From Anaerolineae bacterium (GTDB lineage: Bacteria > Chloroflexota > Anaerolineae > 4572-78 > J111): a stretch of DNA of 64,000 bases. Shown in pieces: positions 881-40,799 of the stretch. Positions within the stretch are counted from its first letter, which is position 1. Every line of letters starts with the position of its first letter. Location of the stretch: assembly GCA_023382535.1 (NCBI GenBank), contig JAHDWA010000002.1, positions 124,001 to 188,000 of the forward strand, read 5' to 3'. A model generated the notes under the pieces. That model was not told the origin of the DNA. It did no database searches and was given only the letters and a program-made list of their open reading frames with translations. Position numbers and translations under genes: made by a program.

Positions 881-946
881 ACTTTAGCACACAAACCCAT
901 CTTTTTGCATAAACTTTGGGTCAAGGTAAGGTAAAAGAAGGGTAAA
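881..946 (-). promoter_or_regulatory. Four-repeat flagellar operator and promoter of fliW-csrA
   Basis: Reading the minus strand there are four pentamers at exact 11-bp period: TTTAC (946-942), TTTAC (935-931), TTGAC (924-920), TTTAT (913-909). The last is followed by GC, then 18 nt, then GCTAAAGT with the extended -10 TGC-TAAAGT (886-881). It begins two bases after the flgL stop codon and leaves a leader of about 28 nt before fliW. The same architecture occurs five more times in the window. The binding protein is unknown. Confidence 0.75.
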
Positions 947-947
947 C

Positions 948-1850
948 TCACTTGAGAAAATCCAGTAGTGACATATTTAACGTGCGGGCATTGACTTGAA
1001 GCGCCGCTTGATAGGCAAACTGCTGTTGATTTAGTTGGCTGATAACCTCGGCCATATCGGCATCCTCAGCTTTGGATAACAGTTCTTGAAGCCCTATCTG
1101 AGCTGCCTCAACCCGGTCGGCGGTATTCTCCAGGCGGCGAAGCTTGGTCCCTACGGCAGCTTGTAAATCGGATAAACTACTCGCCTGGTTCTGGATGTCT
1201 GTCACTTTGCTGGCCACATCTCCGACTATAAAAGGGCTGGCCTTGAGGGCATCGCGCAACCTGATGAGGGTATCATAAATACCGGCAAAGGCCTGGTCGC
1301 CCAAAACGTTAACCCCCATATTAATTCCCGGTTCGATCTCACGCATAATTTGCCCGCTATCGCCCTCGTAAGCAACCGAAGTGATAAGGCCGGTGGTGGC
1401 ATCGCGGTTGGTGGTAAAGGCAGGCTGATCTACCTGGAACCCGGCAAAAATGTAATTGTCGCCATGGCGGGTGTTGCCCAGGGCCACCGCCTCTTCCAGA
1501 ATTCCCTCAACTTCGCTGGCCAGGGATTGGCGCTCATCCGGCCCCATCGCCTCGTTGGATCCCTGCAAAGCCAGGTTCTGGCTGCGCATTAATAGCATGT
1601 TCATGTCGCTCAGAGTCCGGTCGGTAGCATTTAGCCAATCGGAACTCATGCTGACATTGTGCAAAATAGCCTCGCCGTTTTGCAGCCGGGCGCGGAAGCC
1701 GAGAGATTGTTCGACGGCAAAGGGGTCATCTTCCGGGCGGCTGACCCGCTTGGTGGTTACAGCTTGCTTTTGAATATCGGCCAGCCGGCGCATGTTGGCC
1801 TGCATCCCCTCGACAGCAGTTTGATCAAGCATTTTGTGGGTAATTCGCAT
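948..1850 (-). CDS. flgL: Flagellar hook-associated protein 3 FlgL
   Basis: Second hook-filament junction protein, exported through the flagellar type III system and placed between FlgK and flagellin. The 300-aa sequence starts MRITHKMLD and has the flagellin-like N-terminal coil with SRPEDDPFAVEQSLGFRARL (residues 37-56) and LNATDRTLSDMNMLLMRSQ. The C-terminus DMAEVISQLNQQQFAYQAAL ends in MSLLDFLK, as in FlgL. A GAGGAG site precedes the ATG. It follows flgK by 20 nt in the order flgM-flgN-flgK-flgL and is presumably read from the sigma-28 promoter upstream of flgM. Confidence 0.95.
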   Translation of the reverse strand: MRITHKMLDQTAVEGMQANMRRLADIQKQAVTTKRVSRPEDDPFAVEQSLGFRARLQNGEAILHNVSMSSDWLNATDRTLSDMNMLLMRSQNLALQGSNEAMGPDERQSLASEVEGILEEAVALGNTRHGDNYIFAGFQVDQPAFTTNRDATTGLITSVAYEGDSGQIMREIEPGINMGVNVLGDQAFAGIYDTLIRLRDALKASPFIVGDVASKVTDIQNQASSLSDLQAAVGTKLRRLENTADRVEAAQIGLQELLSKAEDADMAEVISQLNQQQFAYQAALQVNARTLNMSLLDFLK

Positions 1851-1870
1851 AATTGAGTCTCCTCAAGAAT

Positions 1871-4042
1871 TTAGCGACCGACAACGCCCATGCCATTGAT
1901 GACTTTGTCCAGCATTTCATCAACCGTGGTCATGACCCGGGCCGCCGCCTGGTAGGTCCGTTGATAGGCTGTCAGGGCAACCATCTCTTCATCCAATGAC
2001 ACCCCGGCAATCTCCTCCTGCCGGGTCTGTAGATGCTGGGTCAACAGGCCGTGGTTGTCCGTCATGGTTCCAGCCTGCTGCGCTTCCTGGCCCAATTTGG
2101 CGATGGTGATCTGGTAGAAGTTGCCAATCGTGGCCGTACCGCCGTTGAGCAGCATGGCGCTTTGAAGCTGGCTAATCTTTAAGGCCACAGAGCCATCGCC
2201 GGGACTGCTGGCTGAGGCAGCCGTGGCGATCCGGCTGTAATCGGTAGTGATATAACTGCTGAGAGCAATATCTCGCGCGCCGGTACCGCTAAAAAAGTTA
2301 TTAAAGCTGACCCTGGCCGCTCCGGAGCTGTAAGTTCCTACCTGCGTCCCGCGGGCCGTGTAAGCCACACTGGCTGCCGGGATGGGAGGCGGTGTGGCCG
2401 AACCGCCGCGCACCGCATCAACATACGGCCCGCCGCTAAACTGGATGGTTAAGCCTCGGCCTGTATCAAAACTATTGCTTGCCGGAATGGTCTGCCAGGC
2501 GGTGGTCAGAGAGCCATTGCCGGCTGCGCTGTCAAGAATTTGGGCCGGATTACCCGCCGCGTCTACCAGGCGGAATTCGGAGATACCACTGTTGGTACGA
2601 ATTTCCAGGTAATAGGTACTGCTTGATAATTCAGCCGTTCCCGGGGCTACCCCGCTGATGGTAAAGTTGCTGACATCAGAGTTGGTATTAATGCTGCCCA
2701 GACTATGATCGGCCACAGGAGCGAAACTTACAGCCAACCCCCGCCCGGTGTCAAAAGTTGTTCCATCCACCAGGCCGAAAGGCTGCCAGTTGCTGGTGCT
2801 GGCCGCTCCCCCGGTGCTGGCATCGTCAACAGCGACAGCCTGACCGGCGGCGTCAACCAGGCGAAATTCAAGGGTATTGTTGTTATCGCGCATTTCGACA
2901 TAGTAAGTTCCATCAGGCAAACCGGCCTGCCCCGCCCAGGGCGCAACCGCAGAGAAACTATTAACCGTACCCGGGACAGTGGTCGCACTGGTCGCTCCAC
3001 CGCCAACTGTGCCATTTAAGCCATAACCGGTCTGGTGGAGGCCGTTGACCGCCCCAATCAGCGCGCTGGCTGTCTGATCGAGCTGAGCCATTTTGCCGGG
3101 CAAAATGAGATCGCGGGCAATGAGCGTTCCACCCAGTTTGCCGCCCAATCGCTCGGCTGCCAGCGCCGAAAGGCTGCCTTCCAGGGTGATGCCATTGACC
3201 TGCACGGCCGCCCCTGTATCGGCCCAGATTATTCGCTTGAGCATCTGCCCGCCGCCGGCCTGGGTATTGTTGGGGTCGGCCTGAGCTTCCAGCTCTGAAA
3301 CTGCCTTATCGCTGATGAGCCACTTGCCGCCCAGGTTGACTGTCACCGAGCCGGACTCGCTTTCAAAGGTGTCAACATCAATAATGCTGGCCAGTTCGGT
3401 CAGCAGCTTGTTCCGTTCGTCGCGTAAATCATTAGGTTGTTGGCCCAAACCCTGCACCTGCCGAATGGTTCCATTGAGGTCAGCAATCTGGTGGGCCAGG
3501 TCATTAATTTGCTGCACCTGCAGCCCTACCTGATCATCTAACTCGCCTTGCAGATTGTTAAGCTGACGATATGTCTCGCGCATGGTGGCGCTCAGGCTGG
3601 CGGTGCTTCCGGCCACTTGGGCGCGGGTGGAGACGCTGTCAGGCGAAGTTGCCAGATTGCTCCAGGCGCTCCAGAATTCGCCGAGGTAATGGTTGATGCC
3701 AACTTCTGAAGGTTCGTTGAAGGCCACTTCAATCTGTTGGAGAGTATCCCGGCGGACTTCCCAACCCTTTTGCATTAACGTTTCCTGGCGGATCTGGCTG
3801 TCGAGGAAGTCGGAACGATAACGCTGAAGCTTCTCGACAATAACGCCGGTACCGACCTGTCCCAGTTGTTGGCGGTTGTTGGCCGGTACGGAATAGGGGT
3901 CGCCGGCCGTGAGCAGCGCTTTCTGGCGCGAGTAGCCTGCTGTCTCCACATTGGAGACATTGTGACCGGTCACTTCAATAGCGCGCTGCATGGACCGGAG
4001 CGCGCCGAGCGGTATATTGAGACTACCAAAGGTCGAGGTCAT
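1871..4042 (-). CDS. flgK: Flagellar hook-associated protein 1 FlgK
   Basis: First hook-filament junction protein. The N-terminus (ALRSMQRAIEVTGHNVSNVETAGYSR, residues about 14-39) and C-terminus (LDEEMVALTAYQRTYQAAARV) carry the rod-hook family signatures that form the inner D0/D1 core. At 723 aa it exceeds the roughly 500-550 aa of well-studied FlgK. The excess is a surface insertion at about residues 345-595 holding two tandem related modules, each with a YY-E-R...EFRLVDAAG strand and an FDTGRGL strand (about 374-455 and 471-545). GGGAGG sits 6 nt before the ATG. Confidence 0.96.
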   Translation of the reverse strand: MTSTFGSLNIPLGALRSMQRAIEVTGHNVSNVETAGYSRQKALLTAGDPYSVPANNRQQLGQVGTGVIVEKLQRYRSDFLDSQIRQETLMQKGWEVRRDTLQQIEVAFNEPSEVGINHYLGEFWSAWSNLATSPDSVSTRAQVAGSTASLSATMRETYRQLNNLQGELDDQVGLQVQQINDLAHQIADLNGTIRQVQGLGQQPNDLRDERNKLLTELASIIDVDTFESESGSVTVNLGGKWLISDKAVSELEAQADPNNTQAGGGQMLKRIIWADTGAAVQVNGITLEGSLSALAAERLGGKLGGTLIARDLILPGKMAQLDQTASALIGAVNGLHQTGYGLNGTVGGGATSATTVPGTVNSFSAVAPWAGQAGLPDGTYYVEMRDNNNTLEFRLVDAAGQAVAVDDASTGGAASTSNWQPFGLVDGTTFDTGRGLAVSFAPVADHSLGSINTNSDVSNFTISGVAPGTAELSSSTYYLEIRTNSGISEFRLVDAAGNPAQILDSAAGNGSLTTAWQTIPASNSFDTGRGLTIQFSGGPYVDAVRGGSATPPPIPAASVAYTARGTQVGTYSSGAARVSFNNFFSGTGARDIALSSYITTDYSRIATAASASSPGDGSVALKISQLQSAMLLNGGTATIGNFYQITIAKLGQEAQQAGTMTDNHGLLTQHLQTRQEEIAGVSLDEEMVALTAYQRTYQAAARVMTTVDEMLDKVINGMGVVGR

Positions 4043-4058
4043 AATCGGCCTCCCATCA

Positions 4059-4571: not shown

Positions 4572-4580
4572 AAGTCACCC

Positions 4581-4862
4581 TTAGCTCAACAGGGGTAATA
4601 ATTTTTCGGCCAGGCTGGTCGCATTGACCTGATAGGTTCCGGCTTCCAATTGAGCGCGAATGGCCCTGACGACATCAACACGAACATCAGGTGTTTCTTT
4701 GACTGCCTGGGTCACACGCTGCAAGGCCAGCGCGTCGCCTGACAAGCTGACCTGGGCCGTATCCCCATGCGCTTTGATCTGGGCTGCTTCCAGTTTGCCC
4801 TCAACGCGATGTGCTCCGTTGGTGTAACGGGTCGGTTGGGTGGGTTGAACTTTATTGATCAT
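4581..4862 (-). CDS. flgM: Anti-sigma-28 factor FlgM
   Basis: FlgM holds FliA (sigma-28) inactive until it is exported through the finished hook. The 93-aa protein has a disordered polar N-terminus and the FlgM C-terminal pattern: VSLSGDALALQRV (about 38-50), DVRVDVVRAIRAQLEAGTYQV (about 60-80), then SLAEKLLPLLS. It is the first gene of flgM-flgN-flgK-flgL and has a consensus sigma-28 promoter about 80 bp upstream. This gives the usual feedback loop in which FliA drives its own inhibitor. The target fliA lies 3.3 kb away in the neighbouring operon. Confidence 0.93.
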   Translation of the reverse strand: MINKVQPTQPTRYTNGAHRVEGKLEAAQIKAHGDTAQVSLSGDALALQRVTQAVKETPDVRVDVVRAIRAQLEAGTYQVNATSLAEKLLPLLS

Positions 4863-4941
4863 CTATTGTCTGCGCCTTTCGATAGCCAAAGACAAAGAGG
4901 CGGGCCGCTCTGGCGCGTCGCCTGTATCTTTGTCTATCAAG

Positions 4942-4968
4942 TTATCGGCAGAAGTGGGGAAAACTTTA
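4942..4968 (-). promoter_or_regulatory. Sigma-28 (FliA) promoter of flgM-flgN-flgK-flgL
   Basis: On the minus strand this reads TAAAGTTT, 11 nt (TCCCCACTTCT), GCCGATAA. Both boxes and the spacing are identical to the classical enterobacterial FliA consensus. It lies in the gap between flgG and flgM, about 80 nt upstream of the flgM ATG, so flgM through flgL should be late genes. Confidence 0.9.
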
Positions 4969-4993
4969 GCCCAATTGCTTAAAACTCTAGCAA

Positions 4994-7148: not shown

Positions 7149-7178
7149 CGTTACTTATTCTCCTCTTGCAGCAGGGCG

Positions 7179-8147
7179 TTAAAACGCATTCTGACGCGCC
7201 GATTTCCTCATCGGGGAGGACGGCCCCATTGATAATAAAAGCCGGACGGCTTCTCGTTCCAAACCGGTCTGAGCTGTGATGGCTGCCGAATCTACCCCCT
7301 GGTCAGCCAGGATAAAGACGCTGCGATAGCGGTCCGCTCCCTGGGCTAAAGGCACTGCTGATCCGGTAGATTGAGTGGGAGAGGGTAAGACAGGAACAGA
7401 ACGGTTTAATTCTACCCCATCTGGCGGCTGCTGACAATCACACAATTCATTAATCCAGGCGGCAAAAATCTTGATGGCTACTAATTCCCGCTCAAGATTA
7501 AAGCCGGCCTGATCAGGCTGAACCGTTATATAGCTGCCATAGTCCTTTATTTCGTCAGAATTTATCGGGCGCAAAGGAACCCGGGCTGACCCCCGTTCTT
7601 CTAACCAGGCAACAAAATGCTGCGCCCGGCTGGCAGTGCGGATGATGGTTACCTGGCTGTAATTGTTCTCGCGCAGATGGTCGGAAAAGGCCAGGACAGC
7701 TTCAGCCATGGCAGCGGGTAAAGAGGGTAAAATCTCCCGTTCCTCTGAAGGGCAAACGGCAGGCGGCAGGGCGTGGTCGGACTCCATGGATAGATTTGCC
7801 CCGTAACGGACCGAACTCGACATCTCCTGCCGGGCCAGACTCTCTTTTGAGGTCTCGGATTGAGCAATCAGGCCGCGCAGTTCGGCTATGGTTTTTTCAG
7901 TCTGCTGCCGAGTCGCTTGCAGGCTAACCTGTTGGCGGTGAAACTCCTCGTGAGCGGCGCTGGCGGCGGCTTGCCACTCATTCAACAAGGCGGCAACACC
8001 CTGCATCTTTTCCACCTGATTCTGGTTGGCAATTTCGCTTTCACTATCTGCCTGATAACGGGTTAGCAGTTGGCGGGTCAGCCAGTACAGGTAGGCGGTG
8101 GCGGCTAAAAGAGCTATTTCAATGAGCAACGGCAAATACGGTAGCAC
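7179..8147 (-). CDS. SwrB-like membrane coiled-coil protein after fliA
   Basis: Layout: an N-terminal membrane segment (about residues 2-20), a charged coiled coil (about 25-95), a central helical segment resembling the N-terminal SAM-like domain of tyrosine recombinases (DHLRENNYSQVTIIRTAS), and a C-terminal ILADQGVDSAAITAQTG...AVRLLLSM module like that ending YlxL/DUF6115 proteins. Directly after the sigma-28 gene, this matches SwrB of Bacillus, which activates flagellar export, in position and overall form. No catalytic recombinase residues are visible. I place the start at GTG 8147, where AGGAGG lies 7 nt upstream; this leaves a 29-nt overlap with fliA. ATG/GTG codons at 8165-8168 are alternatives. 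Confidence 0.72.
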   Translation of the reverse strand: MLPYLPLLIEIALLAATAYLYWLTRQLLTRYQADSESEIANQNQVEKMQGVAALLNEWQAAASAAHEEFHRQQVSLQATRQQTEKTIAELRGLIAQSETSKESLARQEMSSSVRYGANLSMESDHALPPAVCPSEEREILPSLPAAMAEAVLAFSDHLRENNYSQVTIIRTASRAQHFVAWLEERGSARVPLRPINSDEIKDYGSYITVQPDQAGFNLERELVAIKIFAAWINELCDCQQPPDGVELNRSVPVLPSPTQSTGSAVPLAQGADRYRSVFILADQGVDSAAITAQTGLEREAVRLLLSMGPSSPMRKSARQNAF

Positions 8148-8931
8148 TGATTCCCCTCCTGTCATCACGGGTTAGGTTGGGTTCGGCCCGGTTTCTGATC
8201 TGGCTGCGCAGGGCCAATACAGCTCGGGCATGCATCTGGCTGACGCGCGACTCGGAGATGCCAATAGACTGGCCAATTTCTTTCATAGTCAAGCCATCAT
8301 TGTAATAGAGTGAAAGGATAACCTGCTCCCGTTCAGGCAGCGTTTGAATGGCCCTGACTAACTCGGTTTTTGTTTCCTTGTCATCTACTAGGGCAACTGG
8401 GTTGGGGATGTGATTGTCCTCTACCGAATCGTATAAGGTGAGGGCCTCATCACTCTGTTCGGCCAATGGTTTGTCCAGGGAAATAATGGTCGAGTTGGAG
8501 TTGAGAAGGCGCTCATAGTACTGCTCAAGATCAAGACCCAGGTGGCTCGCTACTTCGGCATCGCTGGGCCAGCGGCCCAACGATTGGGTCAGGTCAGCCA
8601 TGGCTTGTTCAAGTTCCCGGGCCTGACGGCGGGCCGAACGGGGAAGAAGATCCAAATGGCGTAACGAGTCGAGGATTTGGCCGCGAATCCGGCCGACGGC
8701 AAAAGTTTCAAATTTAACGCCTCGAGCCGGGTCGAACCGATCTATCGCTTCAATCAGCCCCAGAACCCCATAACCAATCAGGTCTTCTTCTTGCAGACTG
8801 GGTGGCAAAGTTAGCGCCAGCCGGCCGACTACGAATTTAACCAGGCGGGCATAGTGAAGAATTAACGTCTCGCGGGCCTGGCGGTCATTTTGTTGAGTAT
8901 AACAGGTCCATAGCTGGGTTAAGTCGTCCAT
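8119..8931 (-). CDS. fliA: Flagellar sigma factor FliA (sigma-28/SigD)
   Basis: Alternative sigma factor for late flagellar and chemotaxis genes. Region 2 is clear: HYARLVKFVVGRLALTLPP, then EEDLIGYGVLGLIEAIDRFDPARG and FETFAVGRIRGQILDSLR (residues about 25-92). Region 3 follows (ARELEQAMADLTQSLGRWPS) and region 4 has LPEREQVILSLYYNDGLTMK with EIGQSIGISESRVSQMHARA. The length (270 aa) fits. AAGGAA lies 9 nt before the ATG. Its inhibitor FlgM and a perfect sigma-28 promoter are in the same window. The gene follows flhF-flhG, the classic Gram-positive order. Confidence 0.96.
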   Translation of the reverse strand: MDDLTQLWTCYTQQNDRQARETLILHYARLVKFVVGRLALTLPPSLQEEDLIGYGVLGLIEAIDRFDPARGVKFETFAVGRIRGQILDSLRHLDLLPRSARRQARELEQAMADLTQSLGRWPSDAEVASHLGLDLEQYYERLLNSNSTIISLDKPLAEQSDEALTLYDSVEDNHIPNPVALVDDKETKTELVRAIQTLPEREQVILSLYYNDGLTMKEIGQSIGISESRVSQMHARAVLALRSQIRNRAEPNLTRDDRRGISATVFAVAH

Positions 8932-8990
8932 CTGGCACCATTCCTTAAATCGTTTATCAAACAGTTACCGACTGAAATGAGAGGGTGAAG

Positions 8991-9251: not shown

Positions 9252-9282
9252 CTTCGAAGCTCTCTGGAAAAAGTCTCAGGCA

Positions 9283-14376: not shown

Positions 14377-15477
14377 TTAACCTGCTTGCCTTGATCCTTT
14401 ATGACCGGCTTTGATTCGGTAAACAAATGCCAGCACCTCGGCTACTGCCTGATAGAGGTCTAATGGCACTTCCTGGCCGATTTCCACCGTTTTGAACAGG
14501 GCACGGGCCAAAGGTTTGTTTTCCACCAACGGTACGCGATGCTCACGGGCCTTTTCTTTAATTCGTTCTGCTACCAACCGTTCGCCTTTGGCGACTACCT
14601 GGGGAGCGCGCATTTTGCCGTGTTCGTAAATCAAGGCGATAGCCAGGTGCGTCGGGTTGGTGATAACCACATCGGCCTTGGGAACCGCGGCCATCATCCG
14701 GTTCATGGCTAACTGGCGTTGCCGGGAGCGAATACGGGCTTTAAGCTGCGGATTTTCATAACGTTTCATTTCTTCGATGACCTCCTGCCGGGTCATCCGC
14801 AAGCTTTTGTCAAACTCGCGCCGCTGAAAGAGATAATCAGCCGCCGCCAGAACCAGCATAGCTGCGGAGACCCGCAGGCCGACACTTATCCCCACCTGGG
14901 TCAGACTGCCAGCCGCTGCGGCAAGACTCATCCGGCTGGTCGAAGCAAGGGTCAAGGAGTTGTCACAGAGCGTGGTGTAGACGACAAAGCCGATGACCGT
15001 CAGTTTGAGCAATGATTTGAGCAGTTCAACCAGCCCGCGCTTGGAGAAGATTCGCTTCAAACCCGACCAGGGATTGACCCGGTTGAAATCCGGCTTAAAA
15101 ACCTCTTGGCTAAACATAAGGCCCACCTGCACCACATTAACGGCGATACCGACCAGCATCAACGTCCCCAGCAGCGGGGTAACAGCCTGCAAGGTAAGCT
15201 GGCCAACCGCTAAACCACCGGCGCGCACACTGTTGAAGGTGAGGTCGGCGGTGGCGTTGTGAGTACCCGGCATAAAGACAGGAGCAGCCAGGGCAGTAAA
15301 GCTGCGCTGCATCAGTACGCGCAGGCTTTCAACCGAATTAGGGCCAAGCACACTTAACAGCCAGAAGCTGGCCAGTAATATAGCCGCGGAATTGATTTCA
15401 ATGCTTTTGGCTACTTGACCTTTGCGGCGCGCTTCCTCGCGCCGGCGAGGGGTGGGGGCTTCGGTTCGTTCAGACAT
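14377..15477 (-). CDS. flhB: Flagellar export substrate-switch protein FlhB
   Basis: Export-gate protein that switches specificity from rod/hook to filament substrates. It opens SERTEAPTPRRREEARRKGQV, has four membrane segments (about residues 30-210), and a cytoplasmic domain with the self-cleavage motif NPTH at 274-277, followed by the LAIALIYEHGKMRAPQVVAK strand. The length of 366 aa is usual. It lies between fliR and the HDOD gene. A second, shorter homologue of its cytoplasmic domain without NPTH is at 46005-46313. Confidence 0.97.
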   Translation of the reverse strand: MSERTEAPTPRRREEARRKGQVAKSIEINSAAILLASFWLLSVLGPNSVESLRVLMQRSFTALAAPVFMPGTHNATADLTFNSVRAGGLAVGQLTLQAVTPLLGTLMLVGIAVNVVQVGLMFSQEVFKPDFNRVNPWSGLKRIFSKRGLVELLKSLLKLTVIGFVVYTTLCDNSLTLASTSRMSLAAAAGSLTQVGISVGLRVSAAMLVLAAADYLFQRREFDKSLRMTRQEVIEEMKRYENPQLKARIRSRQRQLAMNRMMAAVPKADVVITNPTHLAIALIYEHGKMRAPQVVAKGERLVAERIKEKAREHRVPLVENKPLARALFKTVEIGQEVPLDLYQAVAEVLAFVYRIKAGHKGSRQAG

Positions 15478-16313: not shown

Positions 16314-16379
16314 GTTATATCACACCCAGCGGTGGGAATCAGTAAAGTTCTGGTCAAGGGGGCATAAAAAGCACGTAAA
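16314..16379 (-). promoter_or_regulatory. Four-repeat flagellar operator and promoter of the fliR operon
   Basis: On the minus strand: TTTAC (16379-16375), TTTAT (16368-16364), TTGAC (16357-16353), TTTAC followed by TG (16346-16340), each start 11 bp from the next. Then come 18 nt and GATATAAC, giving the extended -10 TGA-TATAAC (16319-16314). The leader to fliR is about 30 nt. It probably drives fliR through flgG, since no other strong promoter is seen in that operon. Confidence 0.78.
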
Positions 16380-20184: not shown

Positions 20185-20222
20185 TAACTGATTACTGAAA
20201 ACTATTTTTGGAGAAGTATAAA

Positions 20223-22142
20223 ATGACAATTGATTACCGCATGAAAATTTTGTTGGTCGAAGATTCCAACTTTGTGCGCCGGTCGGCCAAGAAAGGCTTA
20301 AATGGGCTGGGTTTCGAAAATGTTATTGAGGCCGAAGATGGCATTGAGGCTATCAAGAAGCTCCAGCAAGGGGAAAACATTGATATCATCGTCAGCGATT
20401 GGGTGATGCCCAACAAAGATGGTTACGAACTCCTGCTCTGGGTCCGGGCGAGTGAAAAATACCGGGAAGTTCCTTTTATTATGGCCACAGCCCGGGGTGA
20501 AAAGAAGCAGGTAACCAAAGCAATTGAGGCTGGCGTCACCGATTTTATTACCAAACCTTTCAGCGCAAATGAGCTGCTTGAACTCATCCAAAAGGTCTTT
20601 GAGGTGAAGGGTAAGCCGGAAAAGGTAACGGATCTCAAAGCGATGCAACCCCGTAAGACCGCAGCCGGAAAGTTACTTTTGAAAGTTTCTCACATTCAAA
20701 TCACCGACCATTTAGCCCTGGGAGTTTTAAAACATCTGATTACGACCGGCAAGTGTGAACCGCAATATTTTGAACTTGAAACCGTCTGTATGCCAAGCTG
20801 GAATCCCGTCCAACAGACCCTGGAAAAGGGTGAAGTGGATGCGGCCTTTATTTTAGCTCCGATTGCCATGGACCTTTTTGGTTTCGGTGTGCCGATTAAA
20901 TTGGTGCTGTTAGCCCACAAGAACGGCAGTATTTTTGTGCGGAAAAGAAGCGAAGACAACGGGAAATCTCTGGCTGAATTTTTCAGAAACAAAACCTTCT
21001 ACCTGCCTCACGAATTGTCTATCCACCACATGATCTCGCACATGTTTTTGCGCGGCCTCGGCCTGCGGCCGGGTTTTCGCGGCCAGGGGGACTTTGATAC
21101 CTTCTTTGAGGTAGTGCCGCCGATCAATATGCCGGAATATCTGGCTAAGAATCCCGACGCGGGGGGATATTTAGTGGCGGAACCGTTGGGCACAAAAGCC
21201 ATTGCCGAAGGCATTGCCGACCTCATGTTTCTTTCGGGCGAATTTTGGGAGAATCATCCCTGCTGTGTGGTGGCGCTGCGCGACGAGATTGTGCAACAGC
21301 ACCCGGAAGCGGTCCAGGAATTTGTCAGCATGCTGGTTCAGGCCGGGCAGTTTATTGAGCAAAGACCGGAGACGGCTGCGGCGATTGGCGTCCCATTTTT
21401 AGATCCTCACGGAAAATTGGGATTAAAGGAGTCGGTGCTGCGGGATGTGCTGAAGGAAGCTCAAGGGATCAAAACCAACGATTTGTTTCCGGTGATTGAA
21501 GATTTGGAGCGGATGCAGCGATACATGGTCAATGAAATCGGCATTGGCAGTCTGATTGATTTGCATAAATTTGTTGACACCCGCTTTGCCGAGGTCGCCT
21601 GCAAGAGCAGGACCGGTCGAACATCTGTGCTGCATGATGTTTCTGAAATTGTCGCAGCGCTGACAGGTCATCAAGCCAGCAGTCGTGGAGCTAAGGCCAA
21701 TTTGAATCTGGAAGGGAAATATCTCAGTTTTATGGTTGGAAACGGTGAATTCGCTTTTAATGTCACCGGAGTTAAGGAAATCACCGTGATGAAGCCGGTG
21801 ACGATTGTGCCCCATGCCCCAGCTTTTGTGCAAGGGGTCATTAATCTACGGGGCGAGATTGTGCCTATTGTTGATCTCGGCTGCCGGCTGGGTATGGCGG
21901 CAAGCGAGTACAACAAACGCGCCCGGATCATCATTGTGGAAGTTGCCACGAATAAAGGGTCTATTCCCGTGGGAATTGCGGTCAATTCGGTGTCGGATGT
22001 GATAGACATCCGGGCGAAAGAGATTGAAGAGGTTAGCGCAGTTGAAAAAAACCCGCGGGCAAGTTTTATTCTTGGCTACGCTAAGGCAAACGGAAAAATC
22101 AGAATCTTGCTTGATACGGCCCGTTTGTTTGGTGAAGTTTGA
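20223..22142 (+). CDS. CheY-solute-binding-CheW fusion protein
   Basis: Three domains in 639 aa. Residues 7-130: CheY-like receiver (ILLVEDSNF, phosphorylatable D59 in VSDWVMP, K111). Residues about 150-450: a cytoplasmic relative of NrtA/SsuA/NMT1 solute-binding proteins (LLKVSHIQITDHLALGVL, MPSWNPVQQTLEKGEVDAAF, then ENHPCCVVALRDEIVQQHPE). Residues about 500-639: CheW (LSFMVGNGEFAFNVTGVKEI, VQGVINLRGEIVPIVDL). No signal peptide is present, so ligand would bind in the cytosol and CheW could link it to a CheA array. ATG 20223 is chosen (GGAG 8-9 nt upstream). The next genes are a DUF169 protein and a desulfurase fusion. Confidence 0.87.
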   Translation: MTIDYRMKILLVEDSNFVRRSAKKGLNGLGFENVIEAEDGIEAIKKLQQGENIDIIVSDWVMPNKDGYELLLWVRASEKYREVPFIMATARGEKKQVTKAIEAGVTDFITKPFSANELLELIQKVFEVKGKPEKVTDLKAMQPRKTAAGKLLLKVSHIQITDHLALGVLKHLITTGKCEPQYFELETVCMPSWNPVQQTLEKGEVDAAFILAPIAMDLFGFGVPIKLVLLAHKNGSIFVRKRSEDNGKSLAEFFRNKTFYLPHELSIHHMISHMFLRGLGLRPGFRGQGDFDTFFEVVPPINMPEYLAKNPDAGGYLVAEPLGTKAIAEGIADLMFLSGEFWENHPCCVVALRDEIVQQHPEAVQEFVSMLVQAGQFIEQRPETAAAIGVPFLDPHGKLGLKESVLRDVLKEAQGIKTNDLFPVIEDLERMQRYMVNEIGIGSLIDLHKFVDTRFAEVACKSRTGRTSVLHDVSEIVAALTGHQASSRGAKANLNLEGKYLSFMVGNGEFAFNVTGVKEITVMKPVTIVPHAPAFVQGVINLRGEIVPIVDLGCRLGMAASEYNKRARIIIVEVATNKGSIPVGIAVNSVSDVIDIRAKEIEEVSAVEKNPRASFILGYAKANGKIRILLDTARLFGEV

Positions 22143-24492: not shown

Positions 24493-25197
24493 CTATTCTT
24501 CAATTATCTTATAGAAATCAGATTCTAAATCAACCACCTCACGCAAGAAGGTATCTACCTGTTCTTGCCTCACTTCACCCGCACTGGCCATTTCTTTAAC
24601 TAAATTATGCAGGTGACAGGTGTTATGCAACGCAATTTGGATGAGTCTTTTTTGCTGCTGAATGTTACCGGCGAAACGTTCGGTTAACGTCAGCGTCAGC
24701 GCAGCCAGGATTTGTTCCAACAAGGGGCGTAGTTCCTGGCTGGCTTCACTTAAAATGGTGGTGCGGAGTGTTTCCATCGCCGCTTGGGCTTCGGCTAAGC
24801 CCTGCTGGCGGCTCAAAGCGACGCGGCGAAAAACCGCATTGATCCTGGCCAGTAATTCTTCCCGGTCAAAGGGCTTGGTAATGTAGTCGTCTGCGCCAGC
24901 CTCGATGCCATACAGTTTGTCTACTGGCGCCGACCGTGCAGTCAAAAAGATAAAGGGAATGGCTGCTGTAAGCGGGTCGCGAGCCAGGATTTTCCGCACT
25001 TCAAAACCATTCAGATAGGGCATCATAACATCGCATAAAATAAGATCGGGCTGCTCCTGCTGGGTTAAGCGCAGCCCCTCGTCGCCGTTGAGTGCGGTTA
25101 TAACTTGATACCCCGCCTTCTTTAAAATAAAGGTAAGGTACAATAACGCCTCTTTATCATCATCAATGACCAGAATAGTTGAGGATTGAGCTTTCAT
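24493..25197 (-). CDS. Response regulator with helical output, downstream of fliQ
   Basis: Receiver domain at residues 7-127: TILVIDDDKEALLYL, phosphorylatable Asp in LILCDVMMPYLNGFE, FLTARSAPVDKLYG, and TKPFDREEL. The C-terminal 105 residues are helical (LRPLLEQILAALTLTLTERF) with no recognisable DNA-binding or enzymatic domain; a histidine in the IALHNTCHLHNLV helix hints at an HPt- or HisKA-like dimer, unproven. It ends the flbD-mot-fli operon, 8 nt after fliQ, where fliR would be expected. Confidence 0.82.
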   Translation of the reverse strand: MKAQSSTILVIDDDKEALLYLTFILKKAGYQVITALNGDEGLRLTQQEQPDLILCDVMMPYLNGFEVRKILARDPLTAAIPFIFLTARSAPVDKLYGIEAGADDYITKPFDREELLARINAVFRRVALSRQQGLAEAQAAMETLRTTILSEASQELRPLLEQILAALTLTLTERFAGNIQQQKRLIQIALHNTCHLHNLVKEMASAGEVRQEQVDTFLREVVDLESDFYKIIEE

Positions 25198-31027: not shown

Positions 31028-31240
31028 TTATGCTTCTGCCTCTACAATTTGAGGGCGTTGGCTAAAAATACGCTGCCGGTAGGCCACCACCGCCTCGACG
31101 ATGACTTCGGGCGATTCTTTAACCACAAGTTTGGTATGGCTGATGAGCGAAATCACGGTATCAGGCGTCGCTTCCACAAATTCAATCATTTCGGCGTTCA
31201 CCCACAATGCGCTGTTATTGAGGCGGGTCACTTTGATCAT
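31028..31240 (-). CDS. flbD: FlbD family flagellar protein (SwrD)
   Basis: A 70-aa protein with the whole FlbD pattern: MIKVTRLNNSALWVNAEMIE and FVEATPDTVISLISHTKLVV, then KESPEVIVEAVVAYRQR. In Bacillus the homologue SwrD raises motor torque for swarming. It is the first gene of the mot-fli operon, with GGAGG just before the ATG and a repeat-box promoter ending about 25 nt upstream. Not related to the sigma-54 regulator of Caulobacter that shares the name. Confidence 0.93.
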   Translation of the reverse strand: MIKVTRLNNSALWVNAEMIEFVEATPDTVISLISHTKLVVKESPEVIVEAVVAYRQRIFSQRPQIVEAEA

Positions 31241-31265: not shown

Positions 31266-31331
31266 ACTATATCACCCCCACGGGTAATTTTCAGTAAATG
31301 GCGCGTGAACGGAGGATAAAATCTACGTAAA
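31266..31331 (-). promoter_or_regulatory. Four-repeat flagellar operator and promoter of flbD-motA-motB-fli operon
   Basis: Minus strand: TTTAC (31331-31327), TTTAT (31320-31316), TTCAC (31309-31305), TTTAC followed by TG (31298-31292), all at 11-bp period. Then 18 nt and GATATAGT, forming the extended -10 TGA-TATAGT (31271-31266). The predicted transcript starts about 20 nt before flbD. It is back to back with the operator of the glycosidase-flgC operon, 16 bp away. Confidence 0.8.
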
Positions 31332-31347
31332 AGGGACTGGGGCTGGC

Positions 31348-31413
31348 TTTACGCAAAATTCATGGGCGTTTCACGTCAACTTTACTGAAATATCAGGCCA
31401 GGCGTGCTATATT
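31348..31413 (+). promoter_or_regulatory. Four-repeat flagellar operator and promoter of glycosidase-flgC-fliEFGH operon
   Basis: Plus strand: TTTAC (31348), TTCAT (31359), TTCAC (31370), TTTAC followed by TG (31381-31387), exact 11-bp period. Then 18 nt and GCTATATT, giving extended -10 TGC-TATATT (31408-31413). The leader before the ATG at 31445 is about 25 nt. The rest of the 204-bp gap is explained by this and the divergent operator. Confidence 0.8.
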
Positions 31414-31444
31414 TTTGCTCAGTAAAGATGGGAACCACTTAACA

Positions 31445-32710
31445 ATGAACGAAATCAAAACCCTTAGCTCTGCTCCATTTCCCTCAATCCAAGAGACACT
31501 CTCTTCAACTCGATCCATCTTTACTGCGGACACTGCGGGTGTCCGGCTATCCTCCTCCATCCCCTCCCCCTCGGGGAGGGGACAAGGGGTAGGGGACTTT
31601 GCCCAGGTTCTGGCTCAGGCCCAACAACCCGTAGCAGTCACACCCTCGAAAGCACCGGTAAATATCTGGCGGAGCCTTAACTTTCTGGCTACCCAGTCAG
31701 TAGCACCCGTCTCCTGGCCCTGGACGCAGAGCACCCTTGCCCTAAGCGAACCTTCTTTTAATAATGAAGCCTCCGCCGTTGAGTCCAGCCTTCCTACCGC
31801 CTTATCTACTGCGCCGCAGCTCGCCCTGGCCGACTACCCTCATCCGTCTGGCGATAATGGCCGGGGCATCCACTGGGTGCCGACGGTCAGCCAGACCCCT
31901 GAAACGGTAGATCGCCTGGTTGATGAAGCCGTGGCAATGGGTATGAAATGGGTTGTGTTTCTTAACGAAGGCGCCCAGGTCGGGGCCAATGATTACCTGG
32001 TTAAACGGCTGACCCAGTCCGGTATCGAGCCGGTAATGCGGGTTTACACGCCTGGCCTGACCCCGATCAATGGTGATTTGGAAGAAATGGTTAGCCATTA
32101 TACTGAGCTGGGGGTGCGCTACTTTCAACTTTACAATGAACCGAACTTAATGGTCGAAACGGGGGGCCAGTACCCCAACGTAGACCGGTATCTTGATCTG
32201 TGGGTACCGGCGGCGCGGCAGGTTATCGAGGCGGGCGGCTTGCCTGGCTTTGGCGCCCTCAGCCCGCAAGGGGAAATGGATGATCGAAGCTTTTTGAGCG
32301 AGGCCCTTATTAATCTTAAAGCCCGGGGACAGGCCGGTTTGTTGGGACGCTCATGGCTGGCCATGCATAACTATACCGGCCCGCGCCCCCTGAATGACCC
32401 CGATGGTTTCATGCGTTTTAAGCAGTACGATACCATCATCCGTTCGGCGCTGGGCCGCTCCCTGCCGATTATCGGCACGGAAGGCGGCACCCATATCACC
32501 GAACAGGTGCCGGAACAAAAACAGATTGAGATGGTAACCGGCGCTTACAATTACATGCGCCACCGCGAACCCTACAACTTCGCCTATACCTATTGGATTA
32601 TTGCCAACGGCCACGACGCCGCCTGGGACGAGCACGCGCTGCTTCGCCCCGGAGGTCCGACAGGTTTGGCCCAGGCTCTGAAGAAGATGAACGCGGGAGG
32701 AACGGTATGA
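31445..32710 (+). CDS. Clan GH-A glycosidase heading the flgC-fliE operon, no signal peptide
   Basis: Residues 1-125 are low-complexity with GVGDFAQVLAQAQ at 49-60, similar in style to N-termini of flagellar exported proteins (compare FliE GFGQML and FliK VFGQVL). Residues about 130-410 form a TIM-barrel-like domain with the clan GH-A acid/base in LYNEPN (E232) and a probable nucleophile in GTEGG (E346). No signal peptide or membrane segment is seen. I infer a wall-active or glycan-active enzyme exported by the flagellar apparatus, filling the FlgJ role, but substrate is unknown. It is coupled to flgC by ATGA. The same domain occurs twice more at 46310-49285. Confidence 0.8.
   Translation: MNEIKTLSSAPFPSIQETLSSTRSIFTADTAGVRLSSSIPSPSGRGQGVGDFAQVLAQAQQPVAVTPSKAPVNIWRSLNFLATQSVAPVSWPWTQSTLALSEPSFNNEASAVESSLPTALSTAPQLALADYPHPSGDNGRGIHWVPTVSQTPETVDRLVDEAVAMGMKWVVFLNEGAQVGANDYLVKRLTQSGIEPVMRVYTPGLTPINGDLEEMVSHYTELGVRYFQLYNEPNLMVETGGQYPNVDRYLDLWVPAARQVIEAGGLPGFGALSPQGEMDDRSFLSEALINLKARGQAGLLGRSWLAMHNYTGPRPLNDPDGFMRFKQYDTIIRSALGRSLPIIGTEGGTHITEQVPEQKQIEMVTGAYNYMRHREPYNFAYTYWIIANGHDAAWDEHALLRPGGPTGLAQALKKMNAGGTV
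31527..31582. repeat. Two adjacent perfect palindromes inside the glycosidase gene
   Basis: CGGACAC and GTGTCCG (31527-31533, 31539-31545) flank a 5-nt loop. TCCCCTCCCC and GGGGAGGGGA (31560-31569, 31573-31582) flank a 3-nt loop. The second is translated as part of a Ser/Pro/Gly stretch, as seen when an intergenic palindromic repeat lands in a coding region. Both lie in the disordered N-terminal part, where insertion would be tolerated. Confidence 0.75.
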
Positions 32711-33183: not shown

Positions 33184-33197
33184 AGAAAAGGAAAAAT

Positions 33198-33509: not shown

Positions 33510-33550
33510 CCGCCTCTTTGACAAATTCCCCATCGTAAACTAAAACGCAC

Positions 33551-36216: not shown

Positions 36217-36220
36217 ACCT

Positions 36221-36952: not shown

Positions 36953-36972
36953 TACCCTGCCCGGCCCATCTC

Positions 36973-37038
36973 TTTATCCATTCTTTACTTGCCCTTGACG
37001 TCCCGTTTACTGACATTCCCGGCCTAATCAAGTATCAT
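36973..37038 (+). promoter_or_regulatory. Four-repeat flagellar operator and promoter of phosphoesterase-fliI operon
   Basis: Plus strand: TTTAT (36973), TTTAC (36984), TTGAC (36995), TTTAC followed by TG (37006-37012), 11-bp period. After 18 nt comes AGTATCAT; the -10 hexamer TATCAT (37033-37038) has the same register but, unlike the other five copies, lacks the upstream TG. The leader is about 66 nt. It starts 20 nt after the fliH stop. Confidence 0.72.
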
Positions 37039-37110
37039 CAGGTTATAAATTTGTCTCAACAATCCGTCGTTTATTGGCTTCACCCAGCCGCAACTCACCC
37101 ACAATAACCT

Positions 37111-37959: not shown

Positions 37960-37973
37960 CCGTTGAGCCGATA

Positions 37974-39296
37974 ATGGTCACTGTTAACTGGGAAGCGTAT
38001 CACCAAAAGCTCGCCAGGGCCGCCACCCTCGTCAAGCGCGGCCGTGTCACTCAAGTCATCGGTCTGACCATCGAAGCCCAGGGCTTGAATGCTCAAGTGG
38101 GCGAACTCTGTTACATCATTTCCGAAGAATGGCAGACCGAAATACCGGCCGAGGTGATGGGCTTCCGCGACGAGCGCACCCTGCTGATGCCGCTCGGCGA
38201 AATGCGGGGAATTGGGCCTGGCAGCGCCGTGCGAGCGACCGGCTCATATTTGAGCGTTCCGGTCGGCGATTCCCTGCTGGGCCGGGTTTTGGATGGCTTA
38301 GGCCAGCCGCTGGATGGCAAAGGCCCCATTTTTTGTCCCACCAGTTACTCTGTCGCCGGCGCTGCGCCGCCACCTTTGGGCCGTATCCCAATCGGCCAAC
38401 CCCTGGAAACCGGCGTGCGGGCCATTGACGCCTTCCTGACGGTCGGCAAAGGGCAGCGTATGGGTATTTTTGCCGGCAGCGGCGTGGGCAAGAGCACCAC
38501 GATGGGCATGATTGCCCGCCACGCCCGGGCGGATGTCAGCGTGATCGCCCTCATCGGCGAGCGAGGCCGGGAAGTCCAGGAATTTATTCAGCGCGACCTG
38601 GGGCCGGAAGGGTTAGCCCGCTCCGTGGTGGTGGTTTCCACCAGCGACCAGCCGGCCCTCGTCCGGCTGAAAGGAGCCTGGGTCGCCACGGCCATTGCCG
38701 AATATTTCCGGGATCAGGGCCGGGATGTCACTTTTCTGATGGACTCGGTAACCCGTTTTGCCATGGCCCAGCGCGAGATTGGTCTGGCTATTGGCGAGCC
38801 GCCGGCGATGAAAGGGTACACCCCCTCTGTCTTTGCCTTGCTCCCGAAATTGATGGAGCGCACCGGCACCAGCGAACACGGCACGATTACCGGTTTTTAT
38901 ACCGTCCTGGTAGAAGGCGATGACCTGACCGAACCGATCACCGACGCCGTCCGCTCCATTCTCGACGGGCACATTGTGCTGTCGCGGGAATTGGCCACGC
39001 AGAACCATTACCCGGCCGTGGACGTGCTGGAGAGCATCAGCCGGGTCATGCCGGCCATCACCGACTCAACTCATCGCGCCGCCGCCGCCCGCCTGCGTGA
39101 TTTGCTGGCGACCTACCACAAGGCCAGCGATTTGATCAATATTGGCGCGTACGTGGCTGGTTCCAATCCGGCTATTGACCAGGCGATTGCCTTAATGCCC
39201 TCTCTCCTGGATTTTTTGCGCCAGGATGCCCACGCGCCCACGCTTTACTCTGAAACCTTAAACCGGCTGCAATCCATCAGTAAGGCCGAATTTTAG
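37974..39296 (+). CDS. fliI: Flagellar export ATPase FliI
   Basis: Hexameric ATPase that helps feed substrates into the export gate. P-loop GSGVGKS at 168-174, Walker B region VTFLMDSVTRFAMAQREIGL, and the type III signature GEPPAMKGYTPSVFALLPKL. 440 aa is standard. The ATG lies within GCCGATAATGG, an accidental likeness to a sigma-28 -10 box. FliJ follows. Confidence 0.97.
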   Translation: MVTVNWEAYHQKLARAATLVKRGRVTQVIGLTIEAQGLNAQVGELCYIISEEWQTEIPAEVMGFRDERTLLMPLGEMRGIGPGSAVRATGSYLSVPVGDSLLGRVLDGLGQPLDGKGPIFCPTSYSVAGAAPPPLGRIPIGQPLETGVRAIDAFLTVGKGQRMGIFAGSGVGKSTTMGMIARHARADVSVIALIGERGREVQEFIQRDLGPEGLARSVVVVSTSDQPALVRLKGAWVATAIAEYFRDQGRDVTFLMDSVTRFAMAQREIGLAIGEPPAMKGYTPSVFALLPKLMERTGTSEHGTITGFYTVLVEGDDLTEPITDAVRSILDGHIVLSRELATQNHYPAVDVLESISRVMPAITDSTHRAAAARLRDLLATYHKASDLINIGAYVAGSNPAIDQAIALMPSLLDFLRQDAHAPTLYSETLNRLQSISKAEF

Positions 39297-39318
39297 TCAG
39301 CGAGGAAAAAGTTAACTT

Positions 39319-39780
39319 ATGTCCGGTTTAGAAGAATTTCGCTTACAACCTGTACTCAACCTCAAGTCAAATCTGGCCGACACTCTCGAAGTCGAATTTG
39401 CCCACCTGAAAATGGCTCATCAAGAAGAAGTGACCCGCCTGGAGAAACTTCAGCGCCGCAAAACCGAGGAAATGGAGGTTTTGAGCCGGCAGCAGCAAAA
39501 CGGCCCGCTCGACTGCTGCTCCATCGAACTGAGCCAGCAGTATCTCCAAACCCTGGCCGAACACGAAAGCATCCAGACCGCCCGTGTTAAAGAAGCCGAG
39601 CGCCAGGTGGAAACCAAACGCGAGGAACTGGTCAAGATGGTGCAGGACCAGAAAACCCTGGAAAAGCTGCGCGATCAACACGTGGCCAGGCAGCGCCAGG
39701 TTTTGCAGCATCGCGAAGCCAATATGGTTGACGACCTTGTCACCACCCGTTACACCCGGAAAGGTAAACCTGATGCTTGA
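39319..39780 (+). CDS. fliJ: Flagellar export protein FliJ
   Basis: Coiled-coil stalk of the export ATPase. The 153-aa protein is almost wholly helical with charged heptads (EFRLQPVLNLKSNLADTLEV at the start, KEAERQVETKREELVKMVQD near 90-110). This start, with residues resembling FRLQ-VLxxK, is typical of FliJ. It follows fliI by 22 nt and overlaps the next gene by 8 nt. Confidence 0.9.
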   Translation: MSGLEEFRLQPVLNLKSNLADTLEVEFAHLKMAHQEEVTRLEKLQRRKTEEMEVLSRQQQNGPLDCCSIELSQQYLQTLAEHESIQTARVKEAERQVETKREELVKMVQDQKTLEKLRDQHVARQRQVLQHREANMVDDLVTTRYTRKGKPDA

Positions 39781-40288
39781 ACCGATCATGGCCCAACTCC
39801 AGCAGCAAATGCTGCAATCCCTCCTGGCCGACCTGCGCGGCCTGCTCAGCAGCGCTTATGGCAGTGCCGGCAGCAGTGGGCTGAAAGCGCACCCCTCTGC
39901 CTTTGACGACACGCTTCAGGCCGCCGCGGAGCGCTATGGCCTGGACCCGGCCCTGCTCAAGGCCATCGCTCAGGCCGAGTCGGGCTTCTCGCCCCTGGCC
40001 GTTTCTCACGCCGGAGCCAAAGGGATTATGCAATTGATGGACGCCACCGCCCGTCACCTCGGCGTCGAAGACTCCTTCGATCCGGCCCAAAACATTGATG
40101 GCGGCGCTCGCTTTTTGCGCCAACTGCTCGACCGCTACAATGGCGACGAACTCCTGGCCGTCGCCGCCTACAATGCCGGCCCCGGCGCGATTGATCGCTG
40201 GGGCGGCCTGCCCCCCTACAGCGAAACCCGCGCCTATGTTCCGCGGGTGATGGATTTAAGAGAGCAGTATCGGGGATGGTCCGCGTAA
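39773..40288 (+). CDS. Lytic transglycosylase between fliJ and flgB, no signal peptide
   Basis: The 171-aa protein carries a complete SLT domain at about 48-165: LLKAIAQAESGFSPLAVSHA with catalytic E69, GAKGIMQLMDATARHLGV, NIDGGARFLRQLLDRYNGDE, AVAAYNAGPGAIDRWGGLP. The N-terminal 40 residues are helical and polar, without a signal peptide. It should cleave peptidoglycan for rod passage, and the lack of a Sec signal suggests export by the flagellar apparatus itself, as for FlgJ/SltF-type enzymes (inference). The ATG overlaps the fliJ end. Confidence 0.88.
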   Translation: MLEPIMAQLQQQMLQSLLADLRGLLSSAYGSAGSSGLKAHPSAFDDTLQAAAERYGLDPALLKAIAQAESGFSPLAVSHAGAKGIMQLMDATARHLGVEDSFDPAQNIDGGARFLRQLLDRYNGDELLAVAAYNAGPGAIDRWGGLPPYSETRAYVPRVMDLREQYRGWSA

Positions 40289-40312
40289 ATCTTTAAGTTG
40301 AGGAGTCTCATC

Positions 40313-40732
40313 ATGCCCAATCCCATCTCCAACAACACCACCCTCCGCGCCCTCTCCTTTGCCCTCGACGGCCTGTCGCTGCGGCAGAAGGCGACGGCGC
40401 ACAATATCGCCAACGTGGACACGCCGGGTTACAAAGCCCAGCAGGTCAGCTTTGAGACCCAATTGCAGCAGGCCCTGCGGGATAAACCGGAAAGCAGCCT
40501 GCCCCTCGAAGTGACCCACACCGGCCACATTGATTTGCATGGCCCTTCGGCCAGATCGGCGGTCATCAGCATGGATCACCAGGACAACCAACTGCGCAAC
40601 GACGGCAACAACGTGGACATTGACCTGGAGATGACCAGCCTGGCCGAAACTTCCCTGCGCTACCAGAGTTTGACCCAACTGGCCGGAATGAAACTGTCGC
40701 TGCTCAAAACGATCATTCGTGAGGCGCGCTGA
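40313..40732 (+). CDS. flgB: Flagellar proximal rod protein FlgB
   Basis: Rod protein, 139 aa. LRALSFALDGLSLRQKATAH and NIANVDTPGYKAQQVSFETQ form the FlgB signature (residues about 12-50); the C-terminus has NDGNNVDIDLEMTSLAETSL and RYQSL. GAGGAG lies 7 nt before ATG 40313. Normally flgB opens flgB-flgC-fliE; here it ends the fliI operon, 7 kb from flgC. Confidence 0.95.
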   Translation: MPNPISNNTTLRALSFALDGLSLRQKATAHNIANVDTPGYKAQQVSFETQLQQALRDKPESSLPLEVTHTGHIDLHGPSARSAVISMDHQDNQLRNDGNNVDIDLEMTSLAETSLRYQSLTQLAGMKLSLLKTIIREAR

Positions 40733-40733
40733 G

Positions 40734-40799
40734 TTTACCCGGATTTTACGTTACGTTGACCCATCTTTTACTGCAAATCCCCCCGGCCTGTGCTAAATT
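40734..40799 (+). promoter_or_regulatory. Four-repeat flagellar operator and promoter of fliK-flgD-flgE operon
   Basis: Plus strand: TTTAC (40734), TTTAC (40745), TTGAC (40756), TTTAC followed by TG (40767-40773), 11-bp period. Then 18 nt and GCTAAATT with extended -10 TGC-TAAATT (40794-40799). It starts two bases after the flgB stop codon. Leader to fliK about 42 nt, containing a strong AAAGGAGGTG ribosome site. Confidence 0.8.

Follow-up and report, generated by a model that had tools for sequence, protein, structure and literature searches.

A 64,000-nucleotide stretch of an Anaerolineae bacterium genome (assembly GCA_023382535.1, contig JAHDWA010000002.1, positions 124,001 to 188,000; hereafter the window) carries six 66-bp sites, each built of four TTNAY boxes at an exact 11-bp step with a -10 element at a constant place, and each lying before a flagellar operon. 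These sites are probably activator operators joined to sigma70 promoters, read most likely by response regulators of a family that we designate family A, such that the early flagellar operons would be activated together and the sigma factor FliA would then turn on a late operon.

The coordinates and strands of the six sites, their box geometry, the constant place of the -10 and its extended form in five of the six copies all agreed with the initial annotation (Table 1). Its claim that the spacing is beyond chance held as well: with up to two mismatches allowed, the four-box pattern occurred on average 0.14 times and at most twice in 100 dinucleotide-preserving shuffles, while the nine matches in the window itself are the six sites (0 mismatches) and three shifted, overlapping frames of them (one with 1 mismatch, two with 2 mismatches). 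R1, a sequence-only model built from the six sites, matched these alone in the window, at 44-52 bits. The spacing after the TG that follows box 4 is fixed, as had been proposed, but measures 17 nt rather than 18 nt to the extended TGN and 20 nt to the -10 hexamer. Between the -10 and the start codon lie leaders of 25, 31, 34, 36, 48 and 72 nt (first given as 18-70 nt), values that depend on start codons picked by eye. The TG itself had been seen correctly, but its place in a sigma70 -35 element had been overlooked: columns 38-43 of the site (CTGA-A/C-A in most copies) sit 17 bp before the -10, the position expected for a sigma70 -35, and the TG is best read as part of such an element, overlapping the last base of box 4.

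Table 1. Operator-promoter sites of the window and features of the two proposed regulatory tiers
Feature	Position	Strand	Genes behind the site, or context	Sequence features
Copy 1	881..946	-	fliW, csrA	Boxes TTTAC, TTTAC, TTGAC, TTTAT, then GC; extended -10 TGCTAAAGT; R1 47 bits
Copy 2	16314..16379	-	fliR, flhB, HDOD protein, flhA, SRP54-type GTPase (flhF by context), ParA-type ATPase (flhG by context); further behind, fliA-type sigma factor and two rod proteins (flgF, flgG by context)	Boxes TTTAC, TTTAT, TTGAC, TTTAC; -10 TGATATAAC
Copy 3	31266..31331	-	flbD, motA, motB, fliL, fliM, fliN; farther along fliP, fliQ, REC protein	Boxes TTTAC, TTTAT, TTCAC, TTTAC; -10 TGATATAGT
Copy 4	31348..31413	+	Protein without Pfam match, flgC, fliE, fliF, fliG, fliH; divergent from copy 3	Boxes TTTAC, TTCAT, TTCAC, TTTAC; -10 TGCTATATT
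Copy 5	36973..37038	+	Metallophosphoesterase, fliI, fliJ, transglycosylase, flgB	Boxes TTTAT, TTTAC, TTGAC, TTTAC; -35-like CTGACA; -10 TATCAT, not extended
Copy 6	40734..40799	+	fliK, flgD, flgE	Boxes TTTAC, TTTAC, TTGAC, TTTAC; -10 TGCTAAATT
flbD	31028..31240	-	First gene behind copy 3, motA next; 70 aa	Pfam FlbD 1.1e-25
fliA-type sigma factor (sigma28 class by context)	8119..8931	-	In the fliR operon	Sigma-70 regions 2, 3, 4
Sigma28-type promoter	4942..4968	-	Before flgM	TAAAGTTT-N11-GCCGATAA, 0 mismatches
flgM (anti-sigma28)	4581..4862	-	First gene of the putative late operon flgM-flgN-flgK-flgL	Pfam FlgM 4.2e-17

The same operons carry the sites in related genomes (genomes are labelled G and loci L). 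The nearest named homologues of the window FliG include Chloroflexota and Anaerolineae bins, and a FliG-alignment probe of genome contigs gave, among its best 80 loci, one titled Anaerolineae (L001, FliG 76% identical); the remaining loci, mostly titled as Firmicutes groups, were left out of the comparison. On L001 the corresponding intergenic gap holds a divergent pair of sites (36.5 and 29 bits). Scanning 396 genomes of the class of L001, drawn from a larger group, with stricter filters and at most 13 candidates scored per genome, gave R1 matches at an E-value (E) of 0.01 or better in 36 genomes, ten of which had 4-10 matches each. FliG is present in 24 of the 396 genomes, and two or more R1 matches were found in 12 of these 24 versus 6 of the 372 others (Fisher p = 1.6e-12, uncorrected for relatedness). 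The lack of FliG is in part a matter of incomplete assemblies, since at least G105, one of the genomes without a FliG match, has operators before fliW and fliR-flhB; the assemblies carry no completeness figures, and absence calls are therefore soft.

Downstream genes were surveyed for 93 matches (91 plus the two on L001) in stretches around many, not all, of the R1 matches; the stretches were chosen for holding matches, and the resulting fractions thus describe matches rather than genomes. A homologue of a window flagellar gene starts within 450 nt downstream of 49 of the 93 matches and of none of the other 44, some of which lie at contig or stretch ends. By score, the flagellar share is 17/24 at 30 bits or more, 20/30 at 25-30 bits, 7/28 at 20-25 bits and 5/11 below 20 bits. 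Sites precede the flgC-fliE-fliF operon in 12 genomes, motA in 10, fliR in 10, fliK in five, fliI in four, fliW in four, fliA in two and flgC directly in two. Even the fliW-specific variant of the site is kept, as TTTATGCAAAAA before fliW in G305, G105 and G319 and as TTTATTCAAAAA in G178. The initial annotation had held that matches scattered without enrichment before flagellar genes would speak against a flagellar regulon; run on the relatives, the search matched the same operons instead. One type of site stands before most early flagellar operons and is conserved in relatives, as is expected of a flagellar master regulon.

A profile of 73 sites (67 from relatives, with at least 18 bits and TT at column 1, and the six window copies) reads TTTACGC-N4, TTTACG-N5, TTCACGC-N4, TTTACTGA(A/C)A, spacer, TGTGNTATAAT; picking sites with a model somewhat favours the conservation seen beyond the window copies. 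Across this profile CTGAMA (columns 38-43) lies 17 bp before the -10 hexamer. G024 and G059 have three clear boxes and no recognisable -35, with the step from the start of the last box to the -10 kept at 27 bp. Operators of the OmpR/PhoB type comprise two or more direct repeats at a 10-11 bp step, upstream of or overlapping the -35, and such repeats are what was found here. Matches in G258 and G310 (L179-L181, L187) are variant sites with TTCAC boxes and a last box TTTGCTGACA, possibly a sign of altered specificity. In G154, roughly six TTNAC-type boxes, exceeding the usual four, follow one another at 11 bp some 200 nt behind the family A gene (L346:2398-2458).

Gene assignments were made by Pfam and NCBIfam, and operon extents are those suggested by strand and gene order, which would also place the fliA-type gene under the control of copy 2. 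When what we take to be the sigma28 consensus was applied to the window, its sole match at up to three mismatches (0.37 expected) was the perfect promoter before flgM. Sigma28 control of the six sites was accordingly rejected, the pattern occurring once in the window and at another place; a reading of the sites at the RNA level was likewise rejected, the window giving no Rfam match at gathering thresholds. With a perfect sigma28 promoter before flgM and fliA in the copy-2 operon, two tiers are the simplest reading, which suggests that an early tier of operator and sigma70 would feed a late tier of sigma28.

Two genes of these operons call for separate description. The gene leading the flgC-fliE-fliF operon (31415-32710, plus strand) has no Pfam or NCBIfam match, looks glycoside hydrolase-like by eye and has homologues in the same position in 12 other genomes; its product is possibly a wall-cutting partner of the rod. 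Directly behind fliA (7179-8168, minus strand) lies an orphan gene, in the position that swrB occupies in Bacillus; its product lacks a Pfam match, and inspection by eye suggests a membrane segment, a coiled coil and a helix-turn-helix at the C-terminus.

Family A was recognised among the winged-helix (PF00486) loci of four operator-bearing genomes (14, 18, 16 and 16 loci; n = 64). R2, a refined model of 68 sites, gave an operator match at E 0.05 near three of the 64, namely two of the three family A loci versus one of the 61 others, the last being near a G178 regulator of another group (23.3 bits). At the two family A loci, in G151 (37.3 bits) and G305 (15 bits, two clear boxes), the site lies 11-24 nt behind the regulator gene; the family A locus of G162 had no R2 match at E 0.05. 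The G151 site belongs to the 68 sites of R2 and had already been matched with R1.

A profile of the three family A proteins (G151, G162, G305) was run on the 396 genomes with seven candidates scored in each, and 385 of these genomes match it at E 1e-50; it is the bit score, not presence, that separates the family. The eleven best family A genomes (at least 366 bits) are all among the 36 R1-matched genomes, and after removal of the three training genomes all eight that remain carry the operator (p = 1e-9). Around the family A genes themselves, 12 of the 36 loci searched gave an R2 match at E 0.05; part of the 36 had been included on the strength of an operator or flagellar genes known beforehand to lie nearby. 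Behind the regulator gene and on its strand, the site comes after 11-24 nt in G151, G305 and G023 and after 151-220 nt in G185, G258, G154 and G060. The regulator gene is followed in G024 and G059 by a weak operator (19.9 and 20.2 bits) and motA-motB-fliL-fliM, and in G035 by a hybrid kinase gene, an operator (41.4 bits) and motA-motB. G236 has the regulator beside flgN-flgK-flgL-fliW, on the opposite strand, and G319 carries its family A gene on the flagellar contig, some 14 kb past the fliW site. The regulator is followed in the same orientation by a long kinase-like gene in G105, G125, G319, G191, G061, G035, G382 and G340, these neighbours having been recognised by BLAST to window kinases and REC proteins, with a Pfam domain check in G035 and G319.

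REC and Trans_reg_C, the domain pair of OmpR/PhoB-type regulators, were found in all six family A regulators scanned, and residues D8, D9, D52, T82 and K104 are invariant in six sequences of family A and its sister family B. The nearest solved structures to the joint A-B profile are RpaA, MtrA and PhoP. Among NCBIfam models MtrA and RpaB are nearest, and the three family A proteins stay below every curated cut-off among their best 25 families. The domain pair and the sub-cut-off scores together mark family A as an unnamed family of OmpR/PhoB-type response regulators outside these named families. The OmpR-type reader proposed in the initial annotation thus gains a concrete candidate, which lies near operators and precedes motAB in three genomes, and whose binding to them is predicted.

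Two proteins of the window were considered as readers and set aside. The OmpR-type regulator at 58049..58771 (minus strand; REC and Trans_reg_C) was rejected because its full-length relatives with at least 50% identity occur, among the matches listed (30 genomes), in G319, G105, G191 and G305 only and not in other operator-rich genomes. In the REC protein at 24493-25197 no DNA-binding domain was found.

We propose that two dimers of a phosphorylated OmpR/PhoB-type regulator would occupy the four direct repeats of 11 bp in head-to-tail order, all on one helix face. As box 4 overlaps the -35 region, the bound regulator could touch region 4 of sigma and would bring RNA polymerase to a promoter whose -35 is imperfect and whose -10 is extended. 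The early flagellar operons, including that of fliA, would be switched on together, and FliA would then drive the late flgM-flgN-flgK-flgL operon from its sigma28 promoter. The regulator would most likely be family A, a REC-winged-helix protein near MtrA and RpaB that is often followed by a large hybrid histidine kinase.

The specificity of the link between family A and the operator was assessed with a second regulator group, A6, from the same three genomes and of comparable divergence (58-61% identity), which was processed identically. R2 matched the flanks of 5 of 30 family A loci (103,864 bases, E 0.05) versus 0 of 30 A6 loci (107,661 bases, E 1; p = 0.026), two of the five, in G151 and G305, having come to light before A6 was selected as control. 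Counted without a model, sets of three TT[TC]A[CT] boxes at 11 bp occur at 4/30 family A loci versus 0/30 A6 loci, with about none expected. A family A score of at least 275 bits divides the 24 FliG genomes into 14 that reach it and 10 that do not. Flagellar or regulator loci yielded an operator in 13 of the 14 versus 3 of the 10 (G001, G178, G372; p = 0.002), or 4 of the 10 if a doubtful 21-bit match in G341 is counted (p = 0.009). The FliG flanks of G027, G111, G155, G374, G379, G087 and G341, genomes without family A, gave no R2 match.

Several observations weigh against family A as the reader. Once the three training genomes are removed, the control contrast becomes 3/27 versus 0/27 (p = 0.12). 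Operator genomes are enriched at the top of the A6 ranking too, making up 4 of the 8 left in its best eleven once training genomes are removed (p = 0.002), which indicates that part of the genome-level co-occurrence is shared ancestry. The count of 13 in 14 drew on more loci in some family A genomes, several of them chosen with prior knowledge of an operator or flagellar genes at that place, and the flanks of FliG alone, in 16 genomes, give a weak contrast of 5/8 versus 1/8 (p = 0.06). G001, G178 and G372 have operators at flagellar operons and no family A at 275 bits or more; the G001 and G178 assemblies are fragmented, and G105, with operators before flagellar genes and no FliG match, illustrates such gaps. 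No operator was found near 24 of the 36 family A loci, including those of G105, G125, G242, G191, G005, G297 and G162, and of the 73 genomes in which family A scores at least 300 bits, 48 have no operator match at E 0.01. The regulator-linked site of G305 has, as noted, only two clear boxes, the regulator frame of G258 contains a stop, and G117 has family A and only a 12.8-bit operator match. Lastly, no family A gene was found in the 64-kb window; judging from G319, the gene in the window's own genome would lie just left of the window. The gene order before motAB is the stronger part of the evidence for family A.

We consider it unlikely that the reader is instead a different, widely kept OmpR-type regulator, such as family B or one common to the four surveyed genomes, with family A merely in the same regulon. 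This would account for G178, which has operators and family B and lacks family A; several regulator groups are present in all four genomes compared, adjacency to an operator fits the status of a target as well as that of a regulator, and the operators of G151 and G305 point towards the gene that follows the regulator, not towards the regulator. It sits poorly, however, with the concentration of operator matches at family A among the PF00486 loci (2/3 versus 1/61), with the place of family A before the motAB operators of G024 and G059 and, via the kinase, of G035, and with G151, which has operators and in which the best match to family B is the family A protein. A reader outside the response regulators appears very unlikely. 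SARP-type activators use phased direct repeats near the -10, and geometry alone cannot separate a SARP-like or other non-phosphorylated winged-helix activator on 11-bp direct repeats just before the -10 from a response regulator, but the regulator gene that recurs near the operators has a REC domain with the key residues, in an analysis that included no search aimed at SARP proteins.

The sense of the regulation can be weighed in the same manner. A repressor could block the promoter by covering the -35 region, which box 4 overlaps, and a good share of the -35 elements are near consensus (CTGACA); yet all four boxes lie upstream of or touch the -35, with none over the -10 or the start, and the -35 is poor where box 4 reads TTTATGC, before fliW, and unrecognisable in G024 and G059, which suits an activator better and makes repression quite improbable. 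That the six sites are dispersed copies of one recent repeat rather than a selected operator can practically be dismissed: six near-identical layouts do stand within one window, but the letters of the spacers between boxes differ among the copies at nearly every position, and the sites are therefore not recent copies of one repeat. Moreover, the same layout is found at the same operons where flagellar proteins are only about 30-80% identical to those of the window, and the fliW-specific variant is conserved across genomes.

A flagellar regulon, as put forward in the initial annotation, is thus supported, but an exclusively flagellar scope is not borne out, given the 44 of 93 matches without a flagellar homologue downstream. 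Genes of sugar-nucleotide and glycan type lie behind some matches, encoding a UDP-galactopyranose mutase (G001), a cytidylyltransferase (G191), a nucleotidyl transferase (G178), an epimerase (G035) and a hexapeptide transferase (G319); our guess is that the sugar genes serve to decorate flagellin. Further matches precede PrkA (G162), kinase-like proteins and, in G105, a REC protein with weak ParA-type similarity. One G162 match precedes a weak Flp pilin similarity (23.1 bits versus a Pfam cut-off of 32.2), and on weak matches of this kind the operator is perhaps linked to pilus genes. Ornithine carbamoyltransferase genes are found about 300-520 nt downstream of matches in G162 (L147:4671-5606) and G242 (L166:2430-3353). 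These ornithine carbamoyltransferase genes have no obvious link to motility.

More tentatively, family A might be the master switch of a cell-surface programme across this Chloroflexota class, acting on early flagellar operons via the four-box operator and, in the same or in flagellum-less relatives, on glycan-modification genes, sensor kinases and possibly Flp/Tad-type pili, with the flagellar part either added later to an older regulon or a branch of it that was lost; we hold this broader reading to be possible rather than probable.

Three further genes of the window were recorded in passing. A stand-alone FlhB C-terminal domain is encoded at 46005-46313 (plus strand), in addition to the full-length flhB at 14377-15477, and one protein (20208-22142, plus strand) fuses REC, an NMT1-like substrate-binding domain and CheW. 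A 991-aa protein without a Pfam match (46310-49285, plus strand) has a 67% identical homologue in G191 with its own operator match (L155:3260-3325).

In titles and abstract openings of the open-licence PMC literature, we found no description of a flagellar transcriptional master regulator in Chloroflexota. Flagellar 'regulatory genes' are mentioned for Dehalococcoidia, with flagella directly observed only in Tepidiforma, in the pertinent portion of one source (PMC10284905). A defined operator, a target set and a candidate protein make this regulator gap open to a direct binding test, and the fixed register of boxes and promoter over many sites provides a clean natural set for phased OmpR-type boxes driving a sigma70 promoter.

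Among known systems, described here from the pertinent portions of the cited sources, the PHO boxes of PhoB and PhoP share the 11-nt direct repeat units, which in their case are bound head to tail by winged-helix effector domains with a contact between regulator and sigma, and the Streptomyces PHO unit GTTCACC resembles the TTCACGC of the present sites (PMC4415409). Unlike PHO boxes, the operators described here serve flagellar, surface and sensor genes, and the three family A proteins score 191.1, 177.8 and 172.7 bits against a PhoB (TIGR02154) cut-off of 296.2 bits. Cyanobacterial RpaB (NF045944) is among the two best NCBIfam matches of these proteins (198, 195.9 and 215.9 bits against a cut-off of 330 bits), and RpaA is the nearest structure to the A-B profile. 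HLR1, given as two (G/T)TTACA(T/A)(T/A) direct repeats 2 nt apart in a redox-responsive system, has letters close to TTTACGC, but by that wording consists of two repeats at a 10-bp step, whereas the present sites have four boxes at an 11-bp step (PMC9241938).

MtrA of Actinobacteria (2gwr; NF040689) ranks first or second among the NCBIfam matches of the three family A proteins (207, 198.2 and 186.7 bits against a cut-off of 300 bits) and is the second nearest structure, a likeness at the protein level. CtrA of Alphaproteobacteria is an OmpR-type regulator, against whose cut-off of 350 bits (NF045991) two of the proteins reach 140.2 and 139.5 bits, the model not being among the best 25 families of the third. 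The full CtrA site, TTAA-N7-TTAAC, shares the 11-bp step and belongs to a response regulator that controls motility, but it has two half-sites where the present sites have four boxes and a fixed -10; before the motility genes checked in that source, no close matches to the CtrA site are described (PMC3692519). Brucella FtcR, an OmpR homologue, is described as a flagellar master regulator that acts at its own promoter; its motif, as given in the source, is the 8-bp TGTGGGCA without phased repeats, in a different phylum from the phased four-box sites described here (PMC9456535).

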